DNA of 64,000 nucleotides from Leptospiraceae bacterium (lineage in GTDB: Bacteria; Spirochaetota; Leptospiria; Leptospirales; Leptospiraceae): assembly GCA_022402465.1 (NCBI GenBank), contig JAKRSH010000014.1, positions 124,001-188,000 of the forward strand, in the 5' to 3' direction. The position numbers were made by a program, and so were the translations under genes. Below, in pieces: positions 2,828 through 10,853 of this stretch. Every line of letters starts with the position of its first letter. Within the stretch, counting starts at the first letter, position 1. The notes under the pieces are model-generated. The model searched no databases. It had not been told where the DNA came from and saw only the letters and a program-made list of their open reading frames with translations.

Positions 2828-3598
2828 ATGGATATAAATAATAAAAGAATCATTATAACAGGTGCCTCATCTGGTATAGGAAGAGAAACAGTTTTACAAT
2901 TTCTTAAGTTTCATAATGTAAAAATCTTTGCCGTGGACTTGAATAAAGAACAAATTCCAAAAAATGAATCTATTTTACCTTATGAAATGGACATTTCTAA
3001 TCCTAAAAACATAGAGATGATGATTGATACTGCAAGAAACTGGATGGGTGGCATAGATATATTCTTTGCAAATGCTGGATTTGCATACTATGAGAAAATT
3101 TCTACACCCAGTTGGGAAAGAATTTCCAAAATTTTTGAAACAAATGTGTACTCACCAATCTATACATTAACTGTCTTGAATGCAAAACAAGTTGAACCTG
3201 TTTTATTTATAACAACAGCATCTGCAATGAGTCACCTTCCACTTCCAGGCTACGCCTTGTATTCTTCCACCAAAGCATCCGTTCATTCTTTTATGGAAGC
3301 TTTTAGGTACGAAATGAACGCTCGAAATCGAATTATGGTCGTTTATCCTATAGCAACACGAACCAAATTTTTTGATACAGCGGGAAATCAAGTTCCTGTT
3401 CCTTTTCCGAGTCAATCATCTGAAACAGTTGCTAGAAAAATAATTTCAGGAATCAAATGGAATAAGAAAAGAGTTTATCCATCAATGATCTTCTCAATTA
3501 TGCAAGTTTTAGATCGTTTCCTTTTTGTCCCATTAAGAATCTATCAATGGATTGAGGCAGGGAAACTAAAAAATCTCTCAGCTTCGAAAGAAAACTGA
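2828..3598 (+). CDS. Short-chain dehydrogenase/reductase
   Basis: A 256-residue classical SDR oxidoreductase using NAD(P)H. The Rossmann motif GASSGIGRE is near residues 13-21, the NAG motif (FFANAGFAY) near 84, the catalytic Ser in TTASAMS, and the YxxxK pair in YSSTKAS near residue 147. The length and the PhaB/FabG-like layout are normal. The last 60 residues carry a hydrophobic, basic stretch (MQVLDRFLFVPLRIYQWIE), possibly membrane-associated as in some lipid-modifying SDRs. The substrate is unknown. The neighbouring periplasmic START protein makes a lipid or sterol-like substrate attractive, but this is only inference. Confidence 0.9.
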   Translation: MDINNKRIIITGASSGIGRETVLQFLKFHNVKIFAVDLNKEQIPKNESILPYEMDISNPKNIEMMIDTARNWMGGIDIFFANAGFAYYEKISTPSWERISKIFETNVYSPIYTLTVLNAKQVEPVLFITTASAMSHLPLPGYALYSSTKASVHSFMEAFRYEMNARNRIMVVYPIATRTKFFDTAGNQVPVPFPSQSSETVARKIISGIKWNKKRVYPSMIFSIMQVLDRFLFVPLRIYQWIEAGKLKNLSASKEN

Positions 3599-3606
3599 GA
3601 GATTTT
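3570..3606. terminator. Bidirectional terminator between convergent genes
   Basis: A 12-bp perfect inverted repeat (3570-3581 and 3595-3606, 13-nt loop) overlaps the stop codon of the dehydrogenase. On the minus strand the hairpin is followed by a six-T run, so it is a good intrinsic terminator for the TonB receptor gene. It is weaker for the plus-strand gene. Confidence 0.75.
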
Positions 3607-3614
3607 GGTTTATC

Positions 3615-6599
3615 TTAAAAGAAGCGGTAAGTCGCTCCCATAGTAAAGGTTACGCCTGTTCTGTAGGAAAGGAAAAGATCTTCTTGACCTGTTACCTGAT
3701 TTTTTTGGAACACTTTAAATCTTGTGTCCATAATATTTTTTGCAGCAGCTTTGAAATCCAATCGGTCATCTAACTTCCAAGAATAAACGATATCAGTAAT
3801 ACCAACTCCCCTTTCAATTGCATCAGGCGTTCCATTGGATCCTACTGCATAAATTCGATCACCAAAAAAATTATAGTATAATCCTATTGATTGATTTTTC
3901 TTTTTAGTAATAAAATAATCGAACTTTAGGTTATAAACATAATCGGATTGACCCTGCAATCCCCTTGATATATTAGTTGGGTCAAAAGCTGCAGACCTAT
4001 TGAGTTGGTCTATAGTACCTGTTTTAATAAGAATGAATTGTTCCCATGGTAAAACTTGTACATGTGACTTAATAAAAAAGAAGTTAGTCTCGAATCTAAA
4101 TTTATCAAGAAAATCCTTCCTAAAGTCAAATTCAATTCCTCTAATTTCCGCATTAGGTGCATTAGTGTAGGAAAAACTTTGGGAGATTCCACCTGCTGCT
4201 GGTAAACCTACAACTTCAATAGCATTGGATAAATTTTTGTTAAACAAACCTATTCCAAAGTAATCTGATTGTGTAATATAATATTCATACCGTATGTCAT
4301 AGTTATGAATATAAGTTCTCTTTAAATTTGGATTTCCAAAAACACGGTCAGCCCCAAAATATGGTGTAAATCCGAATGGTGAAAGCTCTCTTAAATCAGG
4401 GCGCGTAATAGACTGGGTATAACCCAATCTAAGATTCATATCTTTTTCAAATTCCCATACTAAATTTACCGAAGGTAGTACATCATTAGTCTTTAGCTCT
4501 CCAATACCGTTATTGTCTTGGTTACAGACGTTTGATCTTACAAGTGCAACTCGGACATCTTCATTATCAATATTACAACCATATGATAAATTAAAAGGAG
4601 AGCTTGAATCTCTGGTTCTAAAAGTTTTCACTTTCTGGTACGAATCCTCAACTCTTGCACCACCAATAAACCTCACTTTTGAGATTATTGGTAAATCGAC
4701 TTGAGCAAAATGTGCTTTTAATTTCTGAGAAGCATCATAGGCGTTAGGTTCAACTTGTCTTTCTGAAAATGATTTATTTGCTAAAGATTGACCAGGTCTG
4801 GTAATGTAATCACTTGGATTAAAAGCTATTTCGCCAGGTACAGGAAAGTAGTCATTCGGAACCTGTGTTCCAACATTGGATTTATTTCCGAACTCTCTAA
4901 AGTTAAAATCTTTAAATCTATCCAGAACTAATCCACCAATTTTTAGATCTGATTTTAAACCATCCCATTGTTCAAATGGAATGGTATATTTTAAATTAGC
5001 TTGTCTAACAATGTCTCTTGATTCAGAGAAAAATCTAGTTCCATCAGGATTATTCCCTAAGCGGAAATATGGATCAGTAAAGCTTGCAGATTGAGGTCTA
5101 CGCCAAACTTGCTGAATTAAGTTCGGTTCATCTCGTTGCGCCTGGGCATAGGCTGTATTCCATTCTAATTTGTGAGGTCTTGAATTCTTCCCAAAACTAA
5201 TTGCATGATCACCACCTAATACAGTATTAAATAAAAGTCTAGATGTTATTGTCCCTGTTTGAGAGATGAAATCAAAATTATCTATATTATTTTTTCCCAC
5301 TGAGTCTCTAACATTAGTATCCGAAGTAACTGTATAGAGATTTTTTAGATAAATTTGTTGACCTTTAGTAATTTCATAAGACAAATTAAGATTTGCGCCA
5401 AAATTTGTTTCCTTATTAAAGATTTTAGAATCTTGCTCTTGAATTGGAATTAAATATGTTCCTTCAGGAATTTGCAATCCTCCTAAGAAATTGGGAACAT
5501 ATCTTGCGGTTTTTTCTTGTTTAACTCTAAATTCTTCACTTCTAATCACTCCAAATAAAATTCCGAGCCTCTGACCACTTTCGGTTGTTTTAAAAGTATT
5601 CCCTACAGAGAAATTAAAATTCTTATCATAGCCTCCTCTACCTTGGTCAGGCGTCCACTGCTGATTAAAAGACAATGAAGAGAGATTTACAAATTGTGGA
5701 GGTAGTCCACCAAATCGATTCCCTGGTTCAAGAGGTAGGACATCTGGTAAAGAATTAACAATTCCAGGAAGCTGAAAGCTAGAATTGGGTCTACCAAAGA
5801 AATCCACTGCATCAAAGGTCTTAAACTCATATCCAGTGGTATTCATGTTTCGACCAACACCTAATCCAAGTGACATCTCAAAATTATCCGGATATTCTTT
5901 AGTCTCAATTTTAACTAATCCACCAGAGAACTCTGCAGGATCCTCAGGTACAAATGTTTTGATCACTCTAATATTTTTTAAAAAGGATGATGGAAAAATA
6001 TCTAACGGAACTACTCTCTTGTCAGGTTCGGTAGTTGGGATCAAAACTTCATTTAAGACGGTATTAGAATAACGTTCGCCTAATCCACGAACGAAAACAT
6101 ATTTTCCACCTATTAATGTAATGCCCGTTACTCGTCTTACTACGTCACCTGCGTTTGAATCAGGGGATTTCTTAATTGATTCGGCAGATATTCCATCTGA
6201 AACAGATGCTGATTTTCTCTGTAGTGCAAGTAAAGCTGAGTCTGTATTATTCAAGGCTCTATCAGTAACCTCTACTGTTTGCAATGTTTGAGCTCCAAAT
6301 GTTACATTAACCGACTGAGTCTGACCTCCTGAGATAGATACCTTTCTAGTCTGGGGTCCGTACCCATACATTTGAAACTCTACATCGTAATTCCCAGGTG
6401 GAAGTGATAGATTGTATTTTCCATCGAAATCTGTTTTGGCAAACTTATTTAGACTTCGGACAACAATGGTTGCTCCAAAGACAGCCTCCCCATTCTCCGA
6501 ATCAATAATGGTTCCTCTCAAATTGCCCGTAGCCTGGGAAAAGATAGGAAAAGATAATAAAATAAGAATAAAGTAAATAAATTTTTGTAATATTTTCAA
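3615..6599 (-). CDS. TonB-dependent outer-membrane receptor with carboxypeptidase-regulatory-like domain
   Basis: A 994-residue outer-membrane transporter. After a signal peptide (hydrophobic residues about 8-22) comes a CarboxypepD_reg-like beta-sandwich (about 25-105, beginning GNLRGTIIDSENGEAVFGA). A plug domain follows (about 125-240, with SPDSNAGDVVRRVTGI and YVFVRGLGERYSNTVLNE). A long beta-barrel ends in Phe-Phe (TMGATYRFF), the expected C-terminal aromatic. The start is TTG, chosen because AGGAG lies 7 nt upstream. The cargo is unknown. Two lipoproteins lie upstream on the same strand, and an 11-bp-phased repeat array just upstream resembles a Pho box, which suggests a role in nutrient (perhaps phosphate) scavenging. 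Confidence 0.93.
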   Translation of the reverse strand: MKILQKFIYFILILLSFPIFSQATGNLRGTIIDSENGEAVFGATIVVRSLNKFAKTDFDGKYNLSLPPGNYDVEFQMYGYGPQTRKVSISGGQTQSVNVTFGAQTLQTVEVTDRALNNTDSALLALQRKSASVSDGISAESIKKSPDSNAGDVVRRVTGITLIGGKYVFVRGLGERYSNTVLNEVLIPTTEPDKRVVPLDIFPSSFLKNIRVIKTFVPEDPAEFSGGLVKIETKEYPDNFEMSLGLGVGRNMNTTGYEFKTFDAVDFFGRPNSSFQLPGIVNSLPDVLPLEPGNRFGGLPPQFVNLSSLSFNQQWTPDQGRGGYDKNFNFSVGNTFKTTESGQRLGILFGVIRSEEFRVKQEKTARYVPNFLGGLQIPEGTYLIPIQEQDSKIFNKETNFGANLNLSYEITKGQQIYLKNLYTVTSDTNVRDSVGKNNIDNFDFISQTGTITSRLLFNTVLGGDHAISFGKNSRPHKLEWNTAYAQAQRDEPNLIQQVWRRPQSASFTDPYFRLGNNPDGTRFFSESRDIVRQANLKYTIPFEQWDGLKSDLKIGGLVLDRFKDFNFREFGNKSNVGTQVPNDYFPVPGEIAFNPSDYITRPGQSLANKSFSERQVEPNAYDASQKLKAHFAQVDLPIISKVRFIGGARVEDSYQKVKTFRTRDSSSPFNLSYGCNIDNEDVRVALVRSNVCNQDNNGIGELKTNDVLPSVNLVWEFEKDMNLRLGYTQSITRPDLRELSPFGFTPYFGADRVFGNPNLKRTYIHNYDIRYEYYITQSDYFGIGLFNKNLSNAIEVVGLPAAGGISQSFSYTNAPNAEIRGIEFDFRKDFLDKFRFETNFFFIKSHVQVLPWEQFILIKTGTIDQLNRSAAFDPTNISRGLQGQSDYVYNLKFDYFITKKKNQSIGLYYNFFGDRIYAVGSNGTPDAIERGVGITDIVYSWKLDDRLDFKAAAKNIMDTRFKVFQKNQVTGQEDLFLSYRTGVTFTMGATYRFF

Positions 6600-6669: not shown

Positions 6670-6713
6670 GTTACGATTGGTTTAATTATTTGTTACAAAC
6701 GGATTACATTTCT
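6670..6713 (-). promoter_or_regulatory. Four 11-bp-phased direct repeats upstream of the TonB receptor
   Basis: On the plus strand four units begin at exact 11-bp intervals: GTTAC (6670), TTTAA (6681), GTTAC (6692) and ATTAC (6703). Read on the gene strand they give degenerate TGTAAC-type heptamers separated by 4 nt. The same core and spacing occurs at 8734-8751 upstream of the neighbouring lipoprotein. This is the geometry of an OmpR/PhoB-family binding site. No convincing -10 element was found at the expected distance, so the promoter position is uncertain. Confidence 0.5.
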
Positions 6714-7288
6714 TAAGGTGAAATAACTCCCACTTTAAAGCTATCACCTACTTTGAAAACCATTTTGATTTCATCGATATAGATAGTTTTTCCTTTTAAT
6801 TTAACTGTAACTCTAGGCTTAATGCCTTGAAGTTTTTTATATTCTCTTGGATTCTGAAAATGGATTTCAAACGTGGCCTTATCAGTGAAAAGCTTCATTT
6901 TTGTATTAATTTTCTCATATCCAATTTGGGCACGTTTCTCGACTAAATTTTTGTAGTCATCTAGTGGAGTTATATCTAAAGAAGTGCCACTTCCATATAT
7001 ATTGGGGTATTGAACTTCTAAATTTTCTTTTTCAGTAAAAATAAAAGGGTTTTTACTCAAATCTGATTGGGTTATTGCAATTAATAGAAATTTTTTTACG
7101 GCTTCTTCAGGAGTTTTACTTCCATTGGAAATATAATAAGATTCTTTTTCATTTGATTGAATTAATTGTTTAGAAGCTTCTAACTTAGCTTTCATCTCTG
7201 GGGAAAAATCTAAATCGATTTTTCCTCTTTCGTTTTTGCAGTTAACAAAAAGAAGAAATGGTATTATAATATAAATATATTTATTCAT
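6713..7288 (-). CDS. Putative lipoprotein of unknown function
   Basis: A 191-residue protein not recognised as a named family. The signal peptide ends in a lipobox-like LLFVNC, so it is probably a lipoprotein with Cys near residue 17. The mature part is lysine/glutamate-rich, with a helical stretch (about 30-80) and then a beta-rich C-terminal region (KLFTDKATFEIHF, PRVTVKLKGKTIYIDEIKM, VGDSFKVGVI). This resembles small periplasmic NTF2- or lipocalin-like folds, but that is a guess. It lies between the TonB receptor and a 429-residue lipoprotein on the same strand, so a shared uptake role is plausible. Its start codon sits 3 nt beyond the T-run of the upstream terminator, so expression may depend on read-through. 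Confidence 0.75.
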   Translation of the reverse strand: MNKYIYIIIPFLLFVNCKNERGKIDLDFSPEMKAKLEASKQLIQSNEKESYYISNGSKTPEEAVKKFLLIAITQSDLSKNPFIFTEKENLEVQYPNIYGSGTSLDITPLDDYKNLVEKRAQIGYEKINTKMKLFTDKATFEIHFQNPREYKKLQGIKPRVTVKLKGKTIYIDEIKMVFKVGDSFKVGVISP

Positions 7289-7290
7289 AA

Positions 7291-7315
7291 TAAAAAAACC
7301 CCAGCATAGCTGGGG
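7291..7315 (-). terminator. Intrinsic terminator after the 429-residue lipoprotein gene
   Basis: A perfect 7-bp GC-rich stem (CCCCAGC/GCTGGGG, 3-nt loop) is followed on the minus strand by seven T. It sits between the 429-residue lipoprotein gene and the start codon at 7288. The G-rich 3' arm is also the only ribosome-binding-like sequence for the downstream gene. Confidence 0.9.
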
Positions 7316-7342
7316 TCCTCACTTATTTTTAATGTTAGTAAT

Positions 7343-8632
7343 TTACTTAGCTCTGTAAACTGTCCATCCACCAGACCACCATTTCCCTTCAGCTACAGAA
7401 CCACCACCTAATGATCCATTACCAAACGTTGTTGTAAAATCTGGGAGGTTTTCACCGACACCACAATCTGTGATATTACCTAAGCTTGTTATTGGTAAAG
7501 TAGTTATTTCTGTATTATTTGTTAAATTGGTGCATCCACCGTCAATAGTAGCTCCTTTCCCACTTTGACCTTTTACATTTGTCCAAGTTGCTGGATTGGT
7601 ATTTGCATCACATCTAAAATTTCCTGCAGCATAACCATAAACTAGACCGTTACTAAATCTTCCTGTTAATCTTTCCCGTAATCGCATACCAAAACCACCT
7701 GTAACTTCTTGACCAATAGAAGTAAAGTTAGTTACAAGAGGGTTTGATGGATTTGCAATAGCGTCACCATTTTCTGTTCCATCCATCTCAAAGCCATGGG
7801 GATCAGATGAAACTGTTCCACCACAAGAGGTTGGATATTTCACTCCTATTAGATGAGTTAAAGTTCCTTGAAATCCTTCATCCATATCGAAATCATCATC
7901 CATACCACCAGTTACAAGCAAGTGAGACCCGTTAACGTTACCACCCCACCACTCAAAACCATCATCTAGACCTCTGTGAATCTGAACAAAGTCATAATTA
8001 CTATCTTGAGTAACAGTATAGCTTGATAGACCATTCAACTCATCACCAGGAGAAACTTCATTTCCAGCAAACTCTATAACAACATATTTAAGCCTTGCTA
8101 TAGCATTTTGAGTACCAGGATAACTTCTTTTATTAACTCCTTCAGTAGTATTAGGTGCAGTATTTGCAGCAATTGAGCTATTTCCAAGAACTAAAATTCC
8201 TCCCCAATTTCCTGGAGCTCTCCCTCCAACAGCTTGTGAAGAAGTGAAACAAATAGGACGATTTATTGTTCCCTCAGCTGTTAAAGTTCCACCCTCAAAT
8301 ACAAATAAAGAAGAACCAATATCAGCAAAAATAACAGATCCTGGACTTACTGTCAAAGAACCACCATTCGTTACATTTACAGTTCCTTTCAATAGTGCAG
8401 AACCAGAAACTGTTACAGCAGTAGTAATAGTTCCTTCTAATACCTGGGTTGGAGCTGGAACACCAACACCATCACAAAGTGCAGAGCCTGCAATCCCTTG
8501 GTTAGCAAATAAAAGCGCCGCCAATAAGAGCGTGTTATCTTCTTTTTTCTTTTGACAATTCGCAAGCACACCCACAGTAAAAGCAGTGATGAGGGCAACA
8601 CGAATTGATTTATTTATAAAATCTTTCATCAA
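7343..8632 (-). CDS. Large surface or periplasmic lipoprotein, probable beta-helix
   Basis: A 429-residue lipoprotein. A signal peptide with the lipobox VLANC puts the acylated Cys near residue 26, followed by a charged KKKED tether. The body is rich in Gly, Asn, Thr and Val, with short repeats (ALLKGTVNVTNGGSLTVSPG, TLTAEGTINRPICFTSS, NWGGILVLGNSSI) that suggest a right-handed beta-helix. It also has an aspartate-rich stretch (GGMDDDFDMDEGFQG) and several cysteines. TTG at 8632 and ATG at 8629 are both possible starts; AAGGAG upstream suits the ATG. The family is often found beside TonB receptors, which is also the case here. The Pho-box-like promoter about 100 bp upstream suggests regulation by a PhoB-type regulator. 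The ligand is unknown. Confidence 0.85.
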   Translation of the reverse strand: MMKDFINKSIRVALITAFTVGVLANCQKKKEDNTLLLAALLFANQGIAGSALCDGVGVPAPTQVLEGTITTAVTVSGSALLKGTVNVTNGGSLTVSPGSVIFADIGSSLFVFEGGTLTAEGTINRPICFTSSQAVGGRAPGNWGGILVLGNSSIAANTAPNTTEGVNKRSYPGTQNAIARLKYVVIEFAGNEVSPGDELNGLSSYTVTQDSNYDFVQIHRGLDDGFEWWGGNVNGSHLLVTGGMDDDFDMDEGFQGTLTHLIGVKYPTSCGGTVSSDPHGFEMDGTENGDAIANPSNPLVTNFTSIGQEVTGGFGMRLRERLTGRFSNGLVYGYAAGNFRCDANTNPATWTNVKGQSGKGATIDGGCTNLTNNTEITTLPITSLGNITDCGVGENLPDFTTTFGNGSLGGGSVAEGKWWSGGWTVYRAK

Positions 8633-8717: not shown

Positions 8718-8751
8718 ACTTTAGCAAGTTCTTGTTACAGGATTGTTACAG
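8718..8751 (-). promoter_or_regulatory. Pho-box-like promoter of the 429-residue lipoprotein gene
   Basis: On the gene strand two identical heptamers CTGTAAC (8751-8745 and 8740-8734) are separated by 4 nt, giving the 11-bp spacing of a PhoB half-site pair. Exactly 10 nt downstream lies TAAAGT (8723-8718), which matches four of six -10 positions. This is the layout of activator-dependent Pho promoters, where the box replaces the -35 element. Assignment to PhoB itself is inference; another OmpR-family regulator could use the site. Confidence 0.55.
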
Positions 8752-8816
8752 GTTTGTGAGGATTTGGTAAAAATGGAGATTTTGCGGAGCGAGAGAATGG
8801 GAGGTTGCCATTTGCC

Positions 8817-8987: not shown

Positions 8988-10853
8988 ATGATTCGTTCCC
9001 TTTCGGATTTTCTTACTATCTATCCGTGGGAACCAGAGTGGCTAGCCCAAGGGAAGCCTTTGGACTATCTCTGGGATTTTGAGCTACCAGAACCTAGCGA
9101 AGAACTTTGGCCTTGGTTGATAGATACATCCTCTTTCAACAAAAGAATCGGCGTCCCAGAGATGCAATATACAGAAAAAGACGGCAAACTCTTCGGAACC
9201 TCAGTGAATGCGGGCATTTTGATGGAATGGGAAGAGGTTCCATGGGAGTGGGAATATTTAAGAGGCTTAAATAATGCAAGAATTTACTCTAAGGGTCTTG
9301 CAAAATATGTTAGGTCTAGATACATTTTGTACCCTAATGAAACTGGAACCAAACTCTTAGTCTATTTCGGATGGATACCTCGAGGTATTCTTGGCAAATC
9401 CATACTACCATTTGGTATGAAGAAATTGTATTCCGATTATAAAAAGGGATTAACGGATGTTATAAGTGATATTAGAAGAAAAAGAGAGTATAGTTCCTTT
9501 GGATCCAATGAATATACATTCAAAAAAGATAATATTGAATTATTTTCAAAATCCTATCCTACGAAATTAATTCAGATCTCGGAAGAATTATTAAAAAGAA
9601 AATGCAATCCTGAAATTATCCAAAAAACGATTGAATATGTTTTAACAGAAGATGACAACAATCTTTATAGAATTCGAGTAAAACAACTTGCGAAAGAATG
9701 GAATTACAATCTCACCGAAATCTTGCTAGTCTTCTTACATGGTTGTCGAATTGGACTATTTACTCTCTCTTGGGATGTTATATGCCCACATTGTCGAGGA
9801 GTTCGAACAGAAGCGAAGCACTTAGGTGATCTTAGAGATATGGATTCTTGCGATGTATGCCAGATAGATTTTGATGCAACTCAGGCTAATTCTATAGAAG
9901 TTGCCTTTCATGTTCATCCTTCTGTTCGCGAAGTACAGAAAAGATTTTTTTGTGCTGCAGAGCCATCTACCAAGCAACATATTTTCATGCAAAAATATCT
10001 TTCCCCTGATAAACAAACAGAAGCTATTCTTGAATTAGGAGAAGGAACGTATCGATTTCGAACAATAGGTGAGAAAAACTTTTCTATAGCTGAACTTACA
10101 GACGAGGATGGAATAGAAAATTTAGAATGGTCACCCAATAGTTTGCACAATGAATTCAAAATTAAAAATCATTCCAAAATTCAGATGATCAATCCAACAA
10201 ATCAAAAATTAGGATTTATAATTGAATCTAGAAAGGAAGATCAAAATGTTTTACGGCCTGCTGATCTTTTTAACCTACAAGAGTTTCGCGACCTATTCAA
10301 TGAAGAGTCTTTGGCTCATGGGCTATCTTTAGATATTGGTGTACAGACTATTTTATTTACTGATATTGTTGGCTCAACTAAACTATATAGTAAATTAGGT
10401 GATGCAAAAGCCTTTGATAAAGTAAGGCATCATTTTATTCAAGTGTATAGAATTATTCAGGAAAGCGATGGCGCTGTAATTAAAACGATAGGTGATGCCG
10501 TGATGGCATCTTTTCCCTCTTCCTTAAAGGGCTTGCAAGCATCTCAAAACCTTCAAGAATATTTTAAAGATGATTCTGATCCAAGTATACTAAAAATTAG
10601 AACTACTTTGCATACTGGTCCATGTCTTGCTGTGAATTTAAATTCAAATATTGATTATTTTGGAAATACTGTTAACTTAGCCGCCAAACTTCAAAAAGAT
10701 GCGAATGCGAGAGAAATTGTTTTTACGGAATCTATTTTTAGAGATAAAGAAGTAAGAAACTATTTGCTTGAGAATGGTATCAAACTTAGAAGATTAGAGT
10801 TTTTGCAGGAATGGAATAAGGAAACAATTCGAATTTATAAAATGAAGGCATGA
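8988..10853 (+). CDS. Adenylate/guanylate cyclase with DUF5939-like N-terminus and zinc ribbon
   Basis: A 621-residue, apparently cytoplasmic protein. Residues 1-260 form a tryptophan-rich domain of the DUF5939 type found with class III cyclases in spirochaetes. A helical linker leads to a zinc-ribbon-like CPHC...CDVC pair (about 264-290). The class III cyclase catalytic domain occupies about 450-610: TILFTDIVGSTKL carries the first metal-binding Asp, KTIGDAVMASF the second, and DYFGNTVNLAAKL the transition-state Asn region. It would make cyclic AMP (or GMP). No transmembrane segment is seen, so the input is likely a cytoplasmic ligand, redox or metal state. It ends next to a bidirectional terminator. 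Confidence 0.9.
   Translation: MIRSLSDFLTIYPWEPEWLAQGKPLDYLWDFELPEPSEELWPWLIDTSSFNKRIGVPEMQYTEKDGKLFGTSVNAGILMEWEEVPWEWEYLRGLNNARIYSKGLAKYVRSRYILYPNETGTKLLVYFGWIPRGILGKSILPFGMKKLYSDYKKGLTDVISDIRRKREYSSFGSNEYTFKKDNIELFSKSYPTKLIQISEELLKRKCNPEIIQKTIEYVLTEDDNNLYRIRVKQLAKEWNYNLTEILLVFLHGCRIGLFTLSWDVICPHCRGVRTEAKHLGDLRDMDSCDVCQIDFDATQANSIEVAFHVHPSVREVQKRFFCAAEPSTKQHIFMQKYLSPDKQTEAILELGEGTYRFRTIGEKNFSIAELTDEDGIENLEWSPNSLHNEFKIKNHSKIQMINPTNQKLGFIIESRKEDQNVLRPADLFNLQEFRDLFNEESLAHGLSLDIGVQTILFTDIVGSTKLYSKLGDAKAFDKVRHHFIQVYRIIQESDGAVIKTIGDAVMASFPSSLKGLQASQNLQEYFKDDSDPSILKIRTTLHTGPCLAVNLNSNIDYFGNTVNLAAKLQKDANAREIVFTESIFRDKEVRNYLLENGIKLRRLEFLQEWNKETIRIYKMKA

Follow-up and report, generated by a model that had tools for sequence, protein, structure and literature searches.

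A PhoB-type direct repeat before a LipL48-like lipoprotein gene suggests a phosphate-linked TonB system in a Leptospiraceae bacterium

Pairs of a lipoprotein and a TonB receptor linked to low phosphate have been published for Caulobacter and Flavobacterium. In Caulobacter crescentus, the surface lipoprotein ElpS is produced exclusively during phosphate starvation and is found in genomes together with the TonB receptor CC0171 (PMC2996285). The phoBR operon of Flavobacterium johnsoniae (PUSIV) comprises Fjoh_0543 (PhoR), Fjoh_0544 (PhoB), Fjoh_0545 (a TonB-dependent transporter, TBDT), and Fjoh_0546 (the lipoprotein FII); the cluster is strongly induced by phosphate depletion, the bacteria are said to lack PstSABC, and FII is annotated as a pectin-lyase fold, IPR011050 (PMC8115612). 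In Leptospira interrogans, LipL48 (LA3240), LA3241, the TonB receptor LA3242, and tonB/exbD/exbD/exbB (LA3247-3244) form a locus that was reported to be activated by PerRA/PerRB and not by phosphate (PMC7567364, PMC8638967). It was stated that the cargo of this receptor and of LipL48 cannot be predicted from sequence, activation by PerR was described as surprising, and vicR, exbD, TonB-receptor, and lipL48 mutants had paraquat sensitivity in common (PMC7567364, PMC8638967). No Leptospira phosphate regulon was found in the literature searched.

The locus studied here lies in a window of 64,000 nucleotides, the whole stretch of DNA that was analysed, and its features are listed in Table 1. The gene order (lipoprotein, LA3241-family protein, TonB receptor) is that of the LipL48 locus, and as in L. 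interrogans the motor has two ExbDs. In contrast, the L. interrogans locus is described as PerR-dependent, with an unassigned cargo and without a phosphate link (PMC7567364, PMC8638967), and its motor genes are adjacent, whereas here they are on another contig. The 191-aa protein weakly matched NF047470, "LA3241 family PerA/PerB upregulated protein" (E 1.8e-10), falling short of the cutoff, and the TonB receptor shared 58-60% identity with its counterparts in family relatives. A lipoprotein of inferred surface location is thus paired with a CarboxypepD_reg TonB receptor. The 428-aa lipoprotein is predicted to adopt a beta-helix-like fold: its AlphaFold model (mean pLDDT 86) has a beta-helix-like strand pattern, and Foldseek returned weak pectate-lyase-type matches (best PDB match, E 2.3e-3, TM-score 0.21). 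Because these matches are weak, no enzymatic function is claimed for the lipoprotein.

Table 1. Positions of the features of the lipoprotein/TonB-receptor locus in the window.
Feature	Position	Strand	Remarks
PhoB-type box CTGTAAC-aatc-CTGTAAC	8734..8751	minus	exact copy; matches TGTAAYNNNNYTGTAACAA exactly, as do three other genomic sites
-10-like hexamer TAAAGT	8718..8723	minus	10 nt past the box
LipL48-like lipoprotein gene	7343..8629	minus	428 aa; ATG at 8629; lipobox-like LANC in the translation
Intrinsic terminator separating the lipoprotein and LA3241-like genes	7294..7320	minus	12-pair stem, then a T run
LA3241-family lipoprotein gene	6713..7288	minus	191 aa
Second PhoB-type box TGTAAT-ccgtT-TGTAAC-AA	6690..6708	minus	exact core match; 93 bp before the TonB-receptor gene
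TonB-dependent receptor gene	3615..6599	minus	994 aa; CarboxypepD_reg, Plug, beta-barrel (Pfam)
Terminator after the TonB-receptor gene	3570..3606	minus	16-pair stem

The initial annotation had placed the lipoproteins and the TonB receptor in one run. A single transcript is not clear, given the terminator at 7320-7294 and the receptor's own box, which that annotation had missed. Since the terminator between the first two genes is strong, one transcript is not required. Divergent from the lipoprotein gene, at 8988-10853 on the plus strand, is a gene for a protein with DUF5939 and adenylate/guanylate cyclase domains, and a homologue of this protein is also found near the lipoprotein/TonB-receptor pair of one family relative (L068).

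The repeat itself was as first described: TTGTTACAGG is present at 8732-8741 and again at 8743-8752 on the plus strand, a period of 11 bp, with the -10-like TAAAGT 10 nt further on. Read on the gene strand (8751..8718, minus), this gives CTGTAAC-N4-CTGTAAC, 10 nt, and TAAAGT, and the box is 102 bp upstream of the lipoprotein gene. Two 7-bp direct half-sites with an 11-bp period are the feature of a PhoB box, and a -10 element about 10 nt downstream with a dispensable -35 is that of a Pho promoter. Compared with the E. coli PhoB box (structure 1gxp), the two 7-bp half-sites, the 4-bp spacer, and the position upstream of the -10 are alike and the recognition helix is homologous, but the half-site is TGTAAC/T here and TGTCAT/C there. 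Across 16 boxes, similarity to TATAAT was highest exactly 10 nt past the box (mean, 3.25 of 6), compared with means of 1.1-2.4 for the remaining offsets between 2 and 17; the 10-nt spacing exceeds what chance would suggest.

We considered whether the repeat is a functionless chance occurrence. Across the 3.99-Mb genome, CTGTAAC-N4-CTGTAAC had no second exact copy, and with two mismatches allowed it was not enriched and was even rarer than its reversed control; this is because the other copies have TTGTAAT or ATGTAAT half-sites. The generalised core TGTAAYNNNNYTGTAACAA (TGTAAY-N4-YTGTAAC-AA) had four exact matches, against 0.043 expected under an order-2 Markov model, an expectation that is indicative and not a clean test because the core was generalised once three of the four sites had been seen. 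The fourth came after, and it is this site, together with the conservation in relatives, that constitutes the independent evidence. With up to one mismatch, the core had 8 matches and the core read backwards had 2, and a weaker one-mismatch pattern was hardly enriched (21 versus 14 in the control). The matches of the one-mismatch scan were mostly inside genes and chance-like. The four exact sites all fall between genes, each pointing at a gene that begins 46-102 bp further on. As these four copies stand at functionally related promoters and are conserved in relatives, a chance origin is already strongly disfavoured, and we regard it as extremely unlikely.

Two of the four exact sites are those of the present locus, 2 kb apart, and precede the LipL48-like lipoprotein gene and the TonB-receptor gene. 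Of the other two, one is in front of an exbB-exbD-exbD-tonB-pstS operon and one in front of a GNAT acyltransferase gene that has a PiT-like gene behind it. Upstream of the genome's own phoB-phoR there is a degenerate triple repeat, the Na/Pi cotransporter gene has a half-site-like match only, and no site was found in front of the orphan phoU. The proposed co-occurrence of the repeat with phosphate genes was therefore borne out in this genome, with exact boxes before the operon containing pstS and before GNAT-PiT-like and a degenerate one before phoBR. Three intergenic one-mismatch boxes (C22:108484, C42:114453, and C19:98426; L174, L180, and L172) precede genes of small or exported proteins by 22-63 bp, and these may be additional members of the regulon.

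The exbB-exbD-exbD-tonB-pstS operon is on another contig than the lipoprotein/TonB-receptor locus, and its pstS product matches solved phosphate-binding proteins. A search of the genome for PstC gave none over the cutoff, the best weak matches adjoining a generic solute-binding protein. The PstS-like protein has no evident ABC partner, and a Pst ABC transporter, with PstC/PstA permeases alongside PstS, was not found. Divergent from the boxed operon is a gene for a 726-aa protein with RNase-Z-like and cyclic-nucleotide-binding stretches (L055:2133-4313; G000:C19), and the box region may work in either direction. The boxed acyltransferase gene encodes a GNAT protein with an Acetyltransf_5 domain, a domain family to which OlsB-like enzymes belong. 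The gene directly 3' of it (L081:2800-3936; G000:C6:105799-106935) encodes a very divergent PiT/PHO4-like permease, with a weak match below the Pfam cutoff and a PiT-like motif, GNDAVQTVG.

The genome encodes a single PhoB/PhoR pair. The product of phoB (C37:100512-101174) has the top PhoB-family score among the OmpR-type regulators of the genome (248 bits; next, 190), and the adjacent kinase scores best for PnpS/PhoR-type models; both this PhoB (248 bits) and PstS (197 bits) are just under the curated NCBIfam cutoffs. The nearest solved structures to the PhoB DNA-binding domain are those of E. coli PhoB (3t72, 1qqi, and 1gxp), and the recognition helix is nearly identical to that of E. coli PhoB (VTDRTVDVNIKRLR versus VEDRTVDVHIRRLR), whereas the other four OmpR-type regulators differ in this helix. 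Near phoB-phoR, at L054:14223-17405 (G000:C37), are tandem near-identical cassettes in at least three repeats, each consisting of a lipoprotein of ~160 aa and an exported protein of ~110 aa.

Other OmpR-type regulators also use direct repeats of 11 bp, so the box might belong to one such as HemR and the system might import heme or iron. Iron compounds are the usual cargo of TonB systems, and in L. biflexa the OmpR/PhoB-type regulator HemR binds TGACA-N6-TGACA, which likewise has a period of 11 bp, in front of exbB1/exbD1 and of a TonB-receptor gene (PMC11426443). However, the hem-box has another half-site (TGACA, compared with TGTAAY here), heme targets, and another regulator (PMC11426443), and no TGACA-N6-TGACA was found near the locus. 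The co-targets here are the PstS-like protein and the PiT-like permease, the neighbours in relatives are phoB, phoR, and phoU, and in L. biflexa the orthologous receptor is dispensable for iron or heme uptake (PMC8638967). We therefore consider a HemR-like box very unlikely.

Conservation was tested with a pattern trained on the source genome, whose nearest named relatives are MAGs of Leptospiraceae, and applied to relatives; no Leptospira genome was among the matches of the collection scans. In Leptospirales, the site was found before all six exbB operon heads (6/6; combined p 1.6e-5), and before many of the lipoprotein genes (p 2.9e-4) and TonB-receptor genes (p 0.017), although these relatives share ancestry and combined p-values consequently overstate their independence. 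Operon-internal tonB genes in Leptospirales had no site, several relatives lacked a good box where the TBDR or lipoprotein gene was internal to a longer operon, and none of the relatives tested had a separate box for the LA3241-like gene. After correction of gene starts in the family relatives, the box was located at the operon head, in many cases preceded by a third half-site (CTTTATTTaccTGTAATtaattTGTAAC). In five of them (L058, L059, L068, L071, and L090), CTTTAT is conserved at a distance of 11 bp ahead of the two half-sites and looks like a third, weaker half-site. PhoB is kept across Leptospirales, and the site is also found upstream of phoB in several members. The refuting condition named in the initial annotation, loss of the repeat from relatives that retain the genes, was checked in this way and did not refute the PhoB reading.

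Outside the order, in Gammaproteobacteria whose contig also encodes a PhoB scoring over the NCBIfam cutoff, classical CTGTCAT boxes precede the orthologous genes, for example TTGTCATAAATCTGTCAC before the TonB-receptor gene of L136 and CTGTCATctacCTGTCATttgaCTGTCAT before the lipoprotein gene of L141. Relatives of the lipoprotein gene were found next to a TonB-receptor gene in many phyla, and such related pairs adjoin phoB, phoR, phoU, or pstS in several phyla. One contig of a Spirochaetia MAG (L095) carries GNAT-phoB-phoR-lipoprotein-LA3241-TonB receptor and, further on, exbB-exbD-tonB-phoU-pstS; phoB, phoR, phoU, and a PstS-like gene are nearby in the gammaproteobacterial L141 and L146; and phoB is one or two genes away in L126, L136, L138, L157, and L158. 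The Crocinitomicaceae relative (L157) has the same gene order as the F. johnsoniae phoBR cluster.

The reports on L. interrogans suggest another explanation, in which PerR/Fur-type regulators of oxidative stress and host adaptation mainly control the locus, with a secondary role for the direct repeat. In L. interrogans perR mutants, tonB/exbD/exbB, the TonB receptor, LA3241, and LipL48 are strongly down, and PerR ChIP gave a signal 436-617 bp ahead of the operon (PMC7567364). However, no PerR-like palindrome was found in the promoter region of the present locus, and H2O2 had no marked effect on the L. interrogans locus (PMC7567364). Also lost in the perR mutant are vicR and a "putative hemolysin" (PMC7567364), which may be the orthologues of phoB and of the GNAT gene, respectively; if so, one Pho regulon would act downstream of PerR. 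Predominant control by PerR is judged very unlikely.

The other genomic copies, the PhoB/PhoR pair, the conservation before orthologues, and the phosphate-gene linkage together support PhoB, and we consider the repeat very likely to be a genuine PhoB binding site. The link to phosphate limitation suggested by the initial annotation is likewise supported at the level of sequence, by the genomic copies, the E. coli-like PhoB, and the linkage to phoB/phoR/phoU/pstS. We are fairly confident in the whole explanation, a PhoB-type activator site driving phosphate-scavenging genes. It suggests that the outer-membrane system formed by the LipL48-like lipoprotein, the TonB receptor, and the TonB motor scavenges phosphate or phosphate compounds.

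The sites, their spacing, their conservation, and the gene linkage can be read directly, and from them we infer binding, phosphate response, cargo, and the order of transport and hand-over as follows. At low phosphate, PhoR would phosphorylate PhoB, which would bind as dimers to the two 11-bp-spaced half-sites and, standing in for a -35 element, bring RNA polymerase to the -10 that is 10 nt further downstream. Expression would then rise for the LipL48-like lipoprotein, the TonB receptor, and the ExbB-ExbD-ExbD-TonB motor with the PstS-like protein, as well as the GNAT (ornithine-lipid-type) acyltransferase and the PiT-like permease. At the cell surface, the lipoprotein and receptor would bind a source of phosphorus, and TonB energy would pull the cargo through the outer membrane. 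It may then be handed over in the periplasm to the PstS-like protein, with phosphate entering through PiT or Na/Pi permeases in the inner membrane in place of a Pst ABC transporter.

The initial annotation regarded such an uptake system as undescribed for this gene set. This holds within Leptospira and fails elsewhere: with the ElpS and F. johnsoniae systems published, the kind of system is already known. By description, ElpS/CC0171 resembles the present pair in being a phosphate-starvation surface lipoprotein co-occurring with a TonB receptor, but ElpS undergoes cleavage and release assisted by type II secretion, CC0171 is constitutive, and no exbB/tonB/pstS link is described there (PMC2996285). 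The F. johnsoniae cluster, also compared by description, shares a CarboxypepD_reg/Plug TBDT beside a lipoprotein and the lack of a Pst ABC system (PMC8115612), whereas here the genes are spread over several loci joined by boxes and the motor operon carries pstS. What is new is the assignment of the leptospiral LipL48/TonB system, PerR-dependent in earlier reports, to the Pho regulon, and the finding of pstS in the TonB operon of a genome in which no Pst ABC transporter was found.

These results reinterpret an outer-membrane system of leptospires, although the kind of system itself is not new. The site joins four transcription units into one regulon, and this regulon proposes a cargo class for the TonB receptor and the LipL48 lipoprotein. 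More tentatively, the LipL48/TonB-receptor system, that of pathogens included, may be a PhoB-run, TonB-driven, Pst-free importer of phosphorus, in which the PstS-like protein of the TonB operon receives the cargo from the receptor and gives it on to PiT or Na/Pi permeases, with the PerR effect in L. interrogans exerted via VicR as the PhoB homologue. For this bacterium, the system points to phosphate uptake without the Pst ABC pump.
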